The notes beneath the pieces were generated by a model that saw nothing but the letters and a program-made list of their open reading frames with translations, was not told the origin of the DNA and searched no databases. From positions 1-64,000 of the forward strand of contig CAIKTR010000038.1 of NCBI GenBank assembly GCA_903830425.1: a DNA stretch of 64,000 bases. Reading direction: 5' to 3'. The stretch is from an uncultured Opitutia bacterium. Lineage in GTDB: Bacteria; Verrucomicrobiota; Verrucomicrobiia; Opitutales; Opitutaceae. The translations under genes were made by a program, and so were the position numbers. This document shows positions 32,029 to 38,522 of this stretch, in pieces. The first letter of the stretch is position 1, and every line of letters begins with the position of its first letter.

Positions 32029-33843
32029 TTACTTGGCCTTCTTGGCGGCCTTCTGGCGCTCGCCCTGGTTCAGGATGCGCTTGCGGAGCCGCAGGCTCTT
32101 GGGCGTGACTTCGACCAGTTCGTCGATCGCCACGTACTCGATCGCGCGCTCGAGCGACAGCTTGGTCGCGGGAGTCAGGCCGGTGGCGACGCCGTCGCCC
32201 TGGGAGCGGAAGTTGGTGAGCTTCTTCTCGCGGACGGCATTCACGGAGATGTCCTCGTTGCGGGGATTCTCGCCGACGATCATGCCTTCGTAGACGGCCT
32301 CGCCCGGGCTGACGAAGAGCTTGCCGCGCTCCTGCACCATCACGAGGGCGTAGGGGGTGGTGATGCCGGCCTCGGTGGCGATGAGGGTGCCGCTGAGGCG
32401 CGTGAGCACCTCGCCGGCATAGGGCCCGTATTCCTTGAAGAGATGGCTGAGCACGCCGCGGCCGCTGGTGGCGTTGACGACGTCGATTTCCATGCCGATG
32501 AGGCCGCGCGTGGTGATGGTCGCCTCGATCATCGTCGTGTGCGGGAGCTTCTCCATGTTGGTGAGCAGGCCCTTGCGGTTGGCGAGGTTCTGCATGATCG
32601 CCCCCACGCACTCGTCGGGCACTTCGATCCAGACCGTCTCGAAGGGCTCGTGACGGGCACCGTCGACCAGCTGCTCGATCACGGTCGGGCGGGAGACGAG
32701 GAGTTCGAACCCCTCGCGCCGCATGGTCTCGACGAGCACGGCGACCTGCATGGCGCCGCGGGCCTTCACATTGAAGATGCCGGCCTTGTCGGTGTCCTCG
32801 ATGTTGATGGAAACGTTGGTCTTCAACTCGCGCATGAGGCGCTCGCGGAGCTGGCGCGACGTGACGAGCTTGCCTTCCTGGCCGACGAGCGGCCCGTCGT
32901 TGACGCAGAACTGCATCTCGAGGGTCGGCGGGTCGATCTGGGTGAAGGGCAGGGCGTGGCCGGCCTCGTCGGCGGTGAGGGTGTCACCGATGTCGATGTC
33001 CTCGAACCCGGACAGGCCGACGATATTGCCGGCGACCGCGGTCTGGGTCTCGGTGGTGCCGAGGCCGGTGAATTCAAAGACCTTGGTGATCTTGGCGCGG
33101 ACGCGCTTGCCGTCGCTGTGGCGGACGACGAACACGGTCTCGCCGATGCTGGCGGAGCCGCCGAGGATCTTGCCGACCGCGATCCGGCCGACGTAGTCGC
33201 TCCAGTCGATGTTCGACACCAGCATGTGGAACGGCTCGTTGGGCTTCGCGAACGGCGGCGGAATGTGGTCGAGGATCGTCTGGAAGAGCGGGGACATATC
33301 CTTCTTTTCCTCGCCGAGGTGCATCATCATGTAGCCGTCGCGGCCGGAACCGTACACCACGGGGGCGTCGAACTGCTCCTCGGTCGCGTTGAGCTCCATG
33401 AGGAGCTCGAGCACCTTGTCGTACATCTTGGCGGGCTCGGCGTTGTCGCGGTCGATCTTGTTGATGACGATCACCACCTTGAGACCGTGGGCGAGGGCCT
33501 TGCGCAGCACGAAACGGGTCTGGGCCTGGGGGCCGTCGTAGGCATCGATGACCAGCAGCACGCCGTCGACCATGCGCAGTGCGCGCTCCACCTCGCCGCC
33601 GAAGTCGGCGTGCCCGGGGGTGTCGACGATGTTGATCGTCTTGTCCTTCCAGTGCACGGAGGTGTTCTTGGCCTTGATCGTGATGCCCTTTTCCTTCTCC
33701 AGGTCCATGGAGTCCATGGCGCGCTCCTCGACCTGCTGGTTGGCGCGGTAGACGCCGCCTTCCTTGAGCAATTTGTCGACGAGGGTGGTTTTCCCATGGT
33801 CGACGTGGGCAATAATGGCAATGTTACGGATGTTCTGGTTCAT
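32029..33843 (-). CDS. typA: Ribosome-associated GTPase TypA/BipA
   Basis: 604 aa [56 protein letters not shown]...[16 protein letters not shown]. Confidence 0.96.
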
Positions 33844-33969
33844 GGCGCGCACGCTGTTCTGGTCTTTGGAAAAAAGAAGAAAGTGCTGAGCGCCCGCGGC
33901 GAAAGCAAGGCCGAAGGCGCGAGATGAATCGGTTCTTGCGCGGCGGCCCCCGCCTGACTCTCTGGCGGC

Positions 33970-34785
33970 ATGGCTGCCGATTTGGTTTCCACCCCCCTGG
34001 CCCGTGGCCGCAAAGTCACCGCCGAGACGCTGACCGTGGCGCCGGCCGTGCTGGGCCAGCCGCTGGCCGAGCCCTGGCGGCGCCTGGCGGCCATGCTGGT
34101 GGACTTGGCGGCGATCGGGGTGCTTTCCTTCCTGTCCCGGCCGTTCCTCGGCCTCGGCACCGGGCTGCTGCTGCTCGTGCTGCTGGGCAACGCCCCGGCG
34201 GCGCCGGTGGCGCTCCGGACCTTTCGCTGGATCGCCCGCGGCCTGGGGCTCGTCGTCCTGCTGCTGGCGGCCCTGGCCCTGGGCCATGGCTCGTTCCTGC
34301 GGGCTCCCCAGCTCAAGCTCGACGCGCTGACGGGCCGCGCCCCGAGTGCGGCGATGGCCCAGACCGTGCCGGTCTCGCCCCAGGCCTCCTGGGCCGAGTT
34401 GCGGACGGCCAGCGGCCGGCTGCAGGAGCAGGTCGACCAGCTGAAGGACGAGTTGCGGGCGCGGGAGGCGGCGGGGGCGTCGTGGCTCAACCAGGCCCGG
34501 GCGTTCACCGGTGCGCTGGGGGTCACCTTTGGCTGGTCGGGCCTATATTTTACCCTGCTGGTGGGTGGGTGGAACGGCCGGACGCTCGGCAAGCTCCTGC
34601 TGGGAACCCGGGTGGTGCGGATCAACGGGGCGCCGCTGACCTTCTTTGACGCCTTTATCCGCAACGGCGGTTATGTCGCCGGCCTCGCGATGGGCCTGAT
34701 CGGCTTCCTGAAGCTGCTCTGGGAACCGAACCGGCAGACGGTCGAGGACCGCATTGCAGGCACCGTGGTCATCCGGTCCGCCTGA
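33970..34785 (+). CDS. RDD-family membrane protein
   Basis: PWRRLAAMLVDLAAIGVLSF ... WNGRTLGKLLLGTRVVRINGAPLTFFDAFIRNGGYVAGLAMG...NRQTVEDRIAGTVVI. Confidence 0.85.
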   Translation: MAADLVSTPLARGRKVTAETLTVAPAVLGQPLAEPWRRLAAMLVDLAAIGVLSFLSRPFLGLGTGLLLLVLLGNAPAAPVALRTFRWIARGLGLVVLLLAALALGHGSFLRAPQLKLDALTGRAPSAAMAQTVPVSPQASWAELRTASGRLQEQVDQLKDELRAREAAGASWLNQARAFTGALGVTFGWSGLYFTLLVGGWNGRTLGKLLLGTRVVRINGAPLTFFDAFIRNGGYVAGLAMGLIGFLKLLWEPNRQTVEDRIAGTVVIRSA

Positions 34786-34852
34786 CCCGCCGGGGCGGGG
34801 GGCGAAGCCTCGGGGTGGGGGTGGGGCCGGCCCTGCGACGGTTGAAGACGGT

Positions 34853-34889
34853 AAAAAATAAGGCCCCGAGACCTTGCGGTCCCGGGGCC
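34853..34889 (-). terminator. Strong intrinsic terminator with no protein gene upstream on its strand
   Basis: Minus strand GGCCCCGGGACC-GCAA-GGTCTCGGGGCC (12 bp, one G-U) followed by TTATTTTTT; no minus-strand CDS lies upstream until past hrpB (38.5 kb). Confidence 0.85.
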
Positions 34890-35825
34890 AAATTTGGGGG
34901 TGGGCGTTCGCCACGCGCTCTTTCCCAGTGGCACACGATTGGGCGCGCTCGCTTTCGCGGGCTGTGTGCTTCCCGACGCCACTCTCCGCGGCAGGCGGAT
35001 GTTTCGGTCTCATGGCGGGACCGTCCTGACCGTTGCCGGTCGGGATCTTTTGAGTGAGGCCTCTTCGCCCAGTTCGGTCGCTCCCTGCCGGGAGCGGCAC
35101 GCCGGACGTGGTGCGGACACGTCTGCAATCTTACTTCGCGTCGGCACCCTTACCACGGGGACGGCGCCAGCTTTTGGCTGGCCGTTGGCCCTGCGTTACG
35201 GGTCTGACCTCTTAACTCTCAGGTTGCGTTCGCTTTTGCAGTGTGGCGGCGTGCTTTTTCACGCTGCCCCATTGAGGAGGTTGACGGGCCTTGCCTGGTC
35301 CGCTCACTCCCCGCCGCCGTGTCGCCCTTGCGCGCCCTGCTCGCTTTGGGCGAACCGGGCCTTTTGGCGGGGGTTGTCCCGCCGGGAAACGCGACTGCGT
35401 TCTGGTCTGCACAGTAGCAACCATAACCCTCTGGGGTAACTGTGTCGGCGCACGGGTCGAAACGGCCCGTGGACCTGACTCGGCTTGGACGCGGTTTCTA
35501 ATCACGCCTTGCCGCTCAGCTCCTGATTCGTGGATGAACTGACCGGACACGACTCCGGCCAGAGGAGCTGGTGATATCTGCCTGCCAGCACCGCTAACGC
35601 GGCATTGGAGGGGCCGGCAGCACCAGCTGCCACCGACCATTCCCCGGTCACCCGGGATTATCCCAGTCGTGCTCGCGGCGGGTTTTTCATACCGCCGCGC
35701 TGCGACTGTTCTATCAAGGAACGAGGCCAACCTGTCCCCTCCGCCTGGAAAGTGAAGGTTTTGTTCTCCACAACTTCTTCACCGCGCGCCTCGGTGAATA
35801 ACTTGGGAGTAATCCGACTCACCGG
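34853..35825 (-). ncRNA. Candidate large structured noncoding RNA (about 0.95 kb)
   Basis: No credible ORF on either strand; at least a dozen perfect stems; four tetraloops are GNRA only in the minus orientation (GAAA 34953-34956, GCAA 35033-35036, GUGA 35648-35651, GCAA 34874-34877); ends at a strong minus-strand terminator; 5' end not defined. Confidence 0.5.
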
Positions 35826-35834
35826 TTGTTCACA
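35764..35834. promoter_or_regulatory. Cluster of DnaA-box-like 9-mers
   Basis: TTCTCCACA (+, 35764-35772), TTATTCACC (-, 35793-35801) and TTGTTCACA (+, 35826-35834), each one mismatch from TTATNCACA. Confidence 0.3.
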
Positions 35835-35960
35835 ATCGCGCCGGGCGCGGCGCACCCCCCTGCCGCACCCCCTCGGACCGACCCACCGTGGCGCTTGCAA
35901 CCCGCGCGGGGGAATCAGACTTTCGCCTCCCCCTTTTCCCGCCACGCCCTGACCCGCCCG

Positions 35961-38522
35961 ATGCCCGCCCCCCGCGACCTGCCCATCTACGAACTCGAGC
36001 CCGCCCTCGTCGCCGCCTTGCGCGCCTCGGGCCGGCTCATCGTGCAGGCGCCGACCGGCTCGGGCAAGTCGACCCAGATCCCGCAGATCCTGCTCCGCCA
36101 CGGGCTGCTGGGCGAGCGGGGCGAGGTCGTCGTGCTCCAGCCCCGGCGCCTGGCGGCGCGGCTGCTCGCCAAGCGCGTCGCCGAGGAGGTCGGCACCCCC
36201 CTCGGCGGCATCGTCGGCTACCAGATCCGGCTCGAATCCCGGGTCAGCGCCCAGACGCGCATCCGGTTTGTGACCGAGGGCATCCTGTTGCGCCAGATGT
36301 CCTTCGACGACCAACTCCGCGGCGTTAACACGATCGTCTTCGATGAATTCCACGAGCGGCACCTGTATGGGGACATCTCGCTCGCCCGGGCCGTGCAGCT
36401 CCAGCAGACGACTCGGCCCGACCTGAAATTGATCGTGATGTCCGCCACGCTCGATGCCGGCCTGCTCCAGGCGTATCTGGCCCCCTGCGAGGTCCTGGTC
36501 TCGCAGGGGCGCAGCTTCCCGGTGCGGATCGAGTACCTGCCAAAGTCTGTGAACTTTGACGATGAGCCGGTCTGGGACGTGGCGGCCCGGGAGTGTGCCC
36601 GCGTGGCGGCCGAGTCGACCGGCGACCTGCTGGTCTTCATGCCGGGGGCCTACGAGATCAACCGCACCGTCCAGGCGATCCAGGGCGCGCGGGCCTTGCG
36701 GGAGTTTGTGACCTTTCCCCTCCATGGGGAGCTGCCGCCCGAGCAGCAGGACCGCGCCGTGGCCCGCTACGAGGCGCGGAAGATCATCGTCTCCACCAAC
36801 GTGGCGGAAACCTCGCTGACGATCGACGGTGTCACGACCGTGATCGACTGCGGCCTGGCGCGCCGGGCGCGGTTCGACCCGCACCGCGGCATCAACACGC
36901 TGCTGATCGAGAAGATCTCCGCCGCGAGTGCGGACCAGCGGGCGGGCCGGGCCGGACGCACGGCCCCCGGGGTGTGTGTCCGGCTGTGGACCGAGCGCGA
37001 GCACGGCCAGCGGGCGCCGCAGGAGGTGCCGGAGGTGAAGCGGCTCGACCTGTCCGAGGTCGTGCTCACCCTCAAGGCCAGCGGCATCGACGACGTCGCC
37101 CGTTTCCCCTGGCTGGAGCCGCCCGAGCCGAAGGCGCTGGAGCGCGCGGAACTGCTGCTGGCGGATCTCGGGGCGATCGGGCCGGTCGCCGGCCGGGCGG
37201 CGGCCCGCATCACGGAGCTCGGCCGCCGGATGCTGCGCTTCCCGCTGCACCCCCGCTACGCCCGCATGCTGCTGGCGGCGGAGGAGCGCGGCTGCGTCCG
37301 GACCGTGGCGCTGATGGCGGCGCTGACCCAGGGGCGGAATTTTCTGCTGCGCAACGTGCCCAAGGAGGTCGAGCAGGCGCGCGAGGAGGCGCTGGGCGAG
37401 GAGCATGAGAGCGATTTTTTCCGGCTGCTGCGGGCCTGGCGCTTTGCGGACCGCGCGAACTACGCGCTCGAGGCCTGCCGCCGGCTGGGGATCCACGCGC
37501 AGGGGGCCCGCCAGGTTGGGCCGCTGTTCGAGCAATTCCTGGCGATCGCGCAGCAGGAGGGCCTGGACGTCGCGGAGCGCCGCCCGGCCGATGCCGAGGT
37601 GCGGAAGTGCGTGCTGGCCGGCTTTTCCGACCAGCTGGCCCGGCGGCTCGACGGCGGGACGCTGCGGTGCGAGCTGGTCCACCAGCGGCGCGGCGTCCTG
37701 GCGCGGGAGAGCGCCATCGGTTCGGCGCCGCTGCTCGTGGCGGCCGAGATCAGCGAGGTCGAGGGGCGCGGCGGCGAGGTCAGCGTGCTCCTCTCCCTGG
37801 CGACGGCGATCGAGGAGCCGTGGCTGCGGGAGATCTTTCCGGAGGACTACCGGGAGGTGCGCAGCGTGACCTACGACGAGACGATCAAGCGCGTGGTTTC
37901 GCGGCGGGAGCGCCGCTTCCGCGACCTGGTGCTGGAGGCCCGGGCGAGCAGCGACGAGGCCCCGCTGAACGAGGCGGCGGCGCTGCTGACCAAGGAAGTC
38001 ATGGCGGGCCGGCTGAAGCTCGAGGCGTGGGACGAGGCGGTGGAGCAGTGGATCATCCGCGTGAACCGGCTGGCGGAGTGGTTCCCGGAGCTGGAGGTCA
38101 ACGTGCTCACCGAGGCCGATCGCGCGACCCTGGTGGAGCAGATCTGCTATGGGGAGCTCGGCTATCGCGACCTCAAGGACAAGCCGGTGATGCCCGTGCT
38201 GCGGGACTGGCTGACGGCCGAGCAATTCGCCGTGCTGGACGACTACCTGCCGGAAAAGCTGACGATGGCCAACGGCCGCAAGGCGCGGCTGACGTATGCG
38301 AAGGAGGGGCCGCCGGTGCTCAGCGCCCGGATCCAGGAACTCTATGGCATTGAGGGCCGGTTCACGCTCGGCCACGGCCGCGTGCCGGTGAAGTTCGAGG
38401 TGCTGGCCCCCAATCACCGCCCGATCCAGGTGACCGAGGACCTGGGCGCCTTCTGGCGCGACATGTACCCCAAGGTGAAGGCGGAGCTCTCCCGCCGCTA
38501 CCCGCGCCACGAGTGGCGCTAG
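35961..38522 (+). CDS. hrpB: ATP-dependent RNA helicase HrpB (DEAH family)
   Basis: MPAPRDLPIYELEPALVAALRASGRLIVQAPTGSGKSTQIPQILL; C-terminal HRPIQVTEDLGAFWRDMYPKVKAELSRRYPRHEWR. Confidence 0.93.
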   Translation: MPAPRDLPIYELEPALVAALRASGRLIVQAPTGSGKSTQIPQILLRHGLLGERGEVVVLQPRRLAARLLAKRVAEEVGTPLGGIVGYQIRLESRVSAQTRIRFVTEGILLRQMSFDDQLRGVNTIVFDEFHERHLYGDISLARAVQLQQTTRPDLKLIVMSATLDAGLLQAYLAPCEVLVSQGRSFPVRIEYLPKSVNFDDEPVWDVAARECARVAAESTGDLLVFMPGAYEINRTVQAIQGARALREFVTFPLHGELPPEQQDRAVARYEARKIIVSTNVAETSLTIDGVTTVIDCGLARRARFDPHRGINTLLIEKISAASADQRAGRAGRTAPGVCVRLWTEREHGQRAPQEVPEVKRLDLSEVVLTLKASGIDDVARFPWLEPPEPKALERAELLLADLGAIGPVAGRAAARITELGRRMLRFPLHPRYARMLLAAEERGCVRTVALMAALTQGRNFLLRNVPKEVEQAREEALGEEHESDFFRLLRAWRFADRANYALEACRRLGIHAQGARQVGPLFEQFLAIAQQEGLDVAERRPADAEVRKCVLAGFSDQLARRLDGGTLRCELVHQRRGVLARESAIGSAPLLVAAEISEVEGRGGEVSVLLSLATAIEEPWLREIFPEDYREVRSVTYDETIKRVVSRRERRFRDLVLEARASSDEAPLNEAAALLTKEVMAGRLKLEAWDEAVEQWIIRVNRLAEWFPELEVNVLTEADRATLVEQICYGELGYRDLKDKPVMPVLRDWLTAEQFAVLDDYLPEKLTMANGRKARLTYAKEGPPVLSARIQELYGIEGRFTLGHGRVPVKFEVLAPNHRPIQVTEDLGAFWRDMYPKVKAELSRRYPRHEWR

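Follow-up and report, generated by a model that had tools for sequence, protein, structure and literature searches.

What lies in the long gap between the RDD open reading frame, which ends at 34785, and hrpB, which starts at about 35961? In the window (the whole stretch of 64,000 nucleotides analysed here), an earlier note had read from the gap a large structured non-coding RNA, encoded on the minus strand, and had hoped for a new class. The gap is present and it does encode such an RNA. A search of the window against Rfam 15 gave a match to the MISL family (RF03079) at 34903-35663 on the minus strand, with 522.7 bits and an E value of 1e-157. The gathering cut-off of the family is 274.6 bits, and the score is nearly twice that. 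The match covers the full length of the model (positions 1-751 of 751) and is not cut off (cmscan). It is thus virtually certain that the RNA belongs to MISL. Since the match is full-length and to a known family, the RNA is real and not novel: it is an ordinary member of an already catalogued family, which is what the cmscan run proposed in the note revealed, and the hope of a new class has to be given up. The RNA is present as a single copy in the genome of the window. A permissive Rfam scan of 34700-36000 returned no match besides MISL at E <= 1. RNase P RNA, tmRNA, SRP and 6S RNA, whose motifs the note had not found by eye either, are thereby excluded.

The fold could be judged independently of the score. 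The Rfam structure was laid over a structure-blind MAFFT alignment, made from sequence only, of 59 MISL copies less than 85% alike. Standard pairs fill 83.1% of the cells, compared with 37-41% after a shift of the 3′ partner by 1-3 columns, and cells with two-sided changes number 1715, compared with 343-560 after the shift. The covariation that the note had proposed to look for was seen in 155 of the 172 pairs as compensatory, two-sided changes, counts across the copies not being independent since the copies are related. The window sequence itself has standard pairs at 160 of the 172 mapped consensus positions. Ten of the 13 stems picked out by eye are helices of the Rfam model (34931-34969, 35028-35041, 35079-35096, 35249-35264, 35366-35383, 35410-35444, 35451-35471, 35517-35570 with its inner hairpin, 35616-35631 and 35643-35656), and an eleventh (35674-35699) is a conserved 5′ hairpin immediately outside the model. 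The remaining two do not belong to the RNA consensus. The stem at 35105-35123 is absent from it and clashes with a supported helix (35146-35137/35121-35112). The one at 35778-35798 consists of two inverted TTCACC boxes, which are DnaA-box-like, and is a DNA element because it is upstream of the transcript. The GNRA loops of the minus-strand reading are real; for example, GUGA at 35648-35651 becomes GCAA, GCGA or GUAA in other copies. The gap does hold long low-complexity open reading frames, and the region could be thought to code for protein or to be GC-rich DNA with chance palindromes, a caveat that the note itself had raised. The covariance-model E value and the compensatory changes leave such a reading practically no probability, and they dispose of the caveat.

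The RNA extends beyond the Rfam model on both sides (Table 1). A hairpin of the CAGTCG...CGACTG type is found immediately 5′ of GGATAAT in nearly all copies. Shuffled sequences would give its closing helix in about 39 copies; the prediction finds it in 107 of 108, with letters that differ between clades. Downstream of MISL, the terminator scan identified CACCCCCAAATTTGGCCCCGGG...CCGGGGCC-TTATTTTTT as an intrinsic terminator at 34862-34889. The arrangement is found likewise directly past the model end in other aligned copies, and a U-run lies at most 75 nt away in 95 of 113 copies. The start of the transcript is probably near 35725, as judged from the position of a BoxA-like element and from a −10-like GATAAT that precedes this element by 7-8 nt in other clades; a consensus scan for sigma-70 promoters in the window passed none. 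The 5′ hairpin and the terminator, both conserved, appear to bound a transcript some 870 nt long, which on the minus strand would begin near 35725 and end near 34853. In the extent given earlier (34853-35825) the direction was right, and the 5′ limit at 35825 was about 100 nt too far.

Table 1. Features at the MISL locus, in order of position in the window
Feature	Position	Strand	Basis or remark
typA/bipA GTPase, downstream, same strand as MISL	32029..34287	-	same neighbour in 36/113 copies
Intrinsic terminator, GGCCCCGGGACC-GCAA-GGTCTCGGGGCC then TTATTTTTT	34853..34889	-	terminator scan; transcript 3′ end
MISL RNA (RF03079)	34903..35663	-	cmscan score and covariation across 59 copies
Conserved 5′ hairpin, CAGTCG...CGCGGCGG / CCGCCGCG...CGACTG	35664..35709	-	outside the Rfam model
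BoxA-like element, GTTCCTTGATAGAACAG	35706..35722	-	5′ end of predicted transcript; rrn-BoxA PWM
DnaA-box-like, TTCTCCACA	35764-35772	+	one mismatch from TTWTNCACA
DnaA-box-like, TTATTCACC	35793-35801	-	one mismatch from TTWTNCACA
DnaA-box-like, TTGTTCACA	35826-35834	+	one mismatch from TTWTNCACA
hrpB (DEAH helicase), divergent	35961..38522	+	same neighbour in 38/113 copies

In the family of the window, MISL is usually located between divergent hrpB and co-directional typA. Among all 113 copies, one or the other is beside it in 48. In other clades an M23-type peptidase, cysteine synthase or rho is found nearby (these names are from reading of the sequence, not from family searches). Because the adjoining genes change between clades, MISL is free-standing; a protein partner gene was considered and rejected on the same variation. 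A Rho-like gene is found shortly downstream of MISL in about nine genomes (cluster c6, e.g., L173), which is curious beside a BoxA-like antitermination signal.

At the stricter setting, MISL was found in 24 of the 291 sampled genomes of the phylum, and 16 of the 24 belong to the family of the window. Nine family genomes, some of them single-contig, had no match (G045, G080, G086, G089, G117, G141, G209, G225, and G263), so not every member of the family needs the RNA. A conserved-core pattern picked up at least 118 stretches in GTDB species genomes. Of the 80 matches listed, all carry verrucomicrobial names but one, which is titled simply as a bacterium, and among these MISL is nearly confined to Verrucomicrobiota. 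In IMG/VR there is one 2.3-kb contig with a partial MISL (L236, IMGVR_UViG_3300034676_001488), which is probably a misfiled bacterial fragment; a phage-borne RNA was rejected given this single viral contig. Some Opitutaceae genomes have two copies: L025 (G156:C33) with L011 (G156:C5), and L128 with L186 (both JAEUGX). The second copy of G156 has a lower score (405 bits), keeps BoxA and the 5′ hairpin and has no DnaA-like sites, and so may be a paralogue that is decaying or under different control.

The 5′ flank of the RNA is where the locus becomes less ordinary. In nearly all of about 110 copies, the sequence GTTCNTTGAWAGAACAG is found about 58 nt before the start of the MISL model, and outside it, and it is similar to the BoxA in the rrn operons of those genomes. 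A PWM was built independently of MISL from 16 BoxAs of the rRNA leaders and spacers of eleven sampled verrucomicrobial genomes. It reaches at least 10 bits in 100 of the 110 MISL upstream regions, with the site nearly always between −60 and −70, compared with 8 of 110 on the opposite strand, none of 110 in shuffles and downstream, and none in internal controls. With one mismatch permitted, a search of 24 genomes finds the GTTCNTTGAWAGAACAG pattern at MISL and just once elsewhere. When compared with the rrn BoxA of its own genome, the MISL core is close or identical in G159 (where GTTCTTTGAAAG is common to both) and G296 (GTTCATTGAAAA in the 16S leader vs. GTTCATTGAAAG at its MISL, L160), and is one or more mismatches away elsewhere, as in G307 (GCTCTTTGAAAA in the leader vs. 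GTTCATTGAAAG). The clade variants of the MISL element thus appear to track in part the rrn sequence of the same genome. In the family of the window, the element GTTCCTTGATAG is two positions off the BoxA GTTCTTTGACAG of G274, a comparison that rests on the single rrn spacer readable, the 16S leaders of the family being masked as N. We consider the assignment of the element 5′ of MISL to BoxA to be good, not proven.

Further upstream of the BoxA-like element, and also outside the Rfam model, there is a cluster of DnaA-box-like 9-mers (35764..35834). Exact TTWTNCACA sites between about −240 and −70 number 49 in 110 usable copies, compared with 1-2 in shuffled sequences and 0 further upstream. 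When up to one mismatch is allowed, the count is 254, compared with 17-30 on shuffling and 4 in the control further upstream, and 101 of the 110 copies have at least one such site. The sites are present with an hrpB or typA neighbour (44 of 48 copies) or without one (57 of 62), and therefore belong to MISL. Several 9-mers of this type above chance make the region a candidate DnaA box cluster, to which DnaA may bind. In the family of the window, the sites are mostly of the one-mismatch form TTATTCACC, often as an inverted repeat, and not of the canonical form TTATTCACA found at dnaA.

Both upstream signals can be read differently. The BoxA-like letters, GTTCNTTGAWAGAAC, might instead serve as a 5′-terminal hairpin (GUUC-NUUGAWA-GAAC) that shields the transcript from decay. 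The GTTC and GAAC arms are complementary in most copies and in some they are longer (CAGTTC/GAACTG), as such a role would predict. In several copies (GCTCTTTGACAGAAC, GATCTTTGACAGAAA, GTTCCTTGATAGCAC, and GTTCTTTGAGATAAC), however, the arms no longer match while the TTGA core is kept, and it is the core that has the likeness to rrn BoxA. We therefore find the decay-shielding role rather unlikely, and continue to read the element as a putative BoxA. The verrucomicrobial LexA box is TGTTC-N4-GAACA. A LexA operator was rejected since, in the copies with both arms, the spacer between GTTC and GAAC is seven bases rather than four.

As for the 9-mers, they could be an operator for a different transcription factor, or a site that titrates DnaA, MISL being only the nearest gene. 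The inverted TTATTCACC repeat in the family of the window lends itself to this interpretation; in the 5 of 16 family genomes where the repeat matches exactly, it is at the MISL locus only. Yet in other clades canonical TTATTCACA/TTATGCACA sites are placed likewise next to quite different neighbours, which means that the sites travel with MISL. An alternative operator or a titration site is a serious possibility that falls somewhat short of an even chance. It could also be imagined that the locus is the replication origin itself and MISL an origin RNA, given that the DnaA-like cluster adjoins the RNA. In two complete genomes where GC skew was sampled coarsely, however, the switch expected at an origin is far from MISL: at about 1.6-1.9 Mb vs. 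4.39 Mb in G100, and at about 3.6-3.9 Mb vs. 1.67 Mb in G092. dnaA is also far off in several genomes. By coarse skew and dnaA position, oriC at the MISL locus was rejected, and an origin RNA seems very improbable. In G100 and G092, both from the family of the window, the dnaA gene is itself away from the coarse skew switch, and hence the origin may not adjoin dnaA.

In sum, we favor the view that MISL is a free-standing chromosomal gene of about 870 nt, with BoxA-assisted transcription from a DnaA-box-type promoter and a stable, probably abundant product. As far as can be told from conserved signals, this account as a whole is reasonably likely. MISL would be transcribed from its own promoter, at a level set through the upstream cluster by DnaA or by a regulator that recognises the same 9-mer. 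A BoxA right at the 5′ end of the transcript would load NusB/S10 and, much as in rRNA operons, keep Rho from stopping RNA polymerase on its way across the long, untranslated and highly structured template. The RNA so made may serve as a structural RNA or an RNP scaffold. A bolder proposal links MISL synthesis to the machinery of ribosome building, through BoxA and NusB/S10, and also to replication initiation, through DnaA; MISL would then be a candidate for an RNA of Verrucomicrobiota that is coupled to growth or the cell cycle. This we offer tentatively, as something speculative and on present signals doubtful.

What seems to be new is the control region of MISL, with predicted signals of both rRNA type and replication-initiator type, throughout the phylum. 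These features were not found discussed for MISL in the literature, which was covered thinly and with the founding description outside it; what was found is a structure-mapping data set in which a MISL RNA serves as an example. MISL may have been first described in a survey from 2017 that put forward 224 candidate structured RNAs. MISL is an orphan among large RNAs, and the conserved control region offers starting points for learning when it is made and by what means. If the BoxA reading is true, MISL would be a BoxA user that neither is rRNA nor codes for protein, a category that a survey of BoxA states to be outside its consideration (PMC5725501).

Finally, how does the locus compare with known systems? 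The RNA of the window has the full-length structure and strand logic of the MISL family, and there is no difference in the RNA itself. The 5′ hairpin, the BoxA-like element, the DnaA-like sites and the terminator all fall outside the Rfam model. OLE, GOLLD and ROOL are, like MISL, large and highly structured, and their function is poorly understood (PMC12286853). They are other families, and none of them matches the region at E <= 1. All three have been seen to form RNA-only oligomers. GOLLD and ROOL were described from phages and prophages near tRNA islands, whereas MISL is chromosomal and has ordinary gene neighbours. The leaders of rRNA operons likewise have, close to where a long, structured and untranslated transcript begins, a BoxA-like element of similar letters. 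MISL differs from them in having an extra symmetric GAAC arm and its own hairpin at once, and it is not rRNA.
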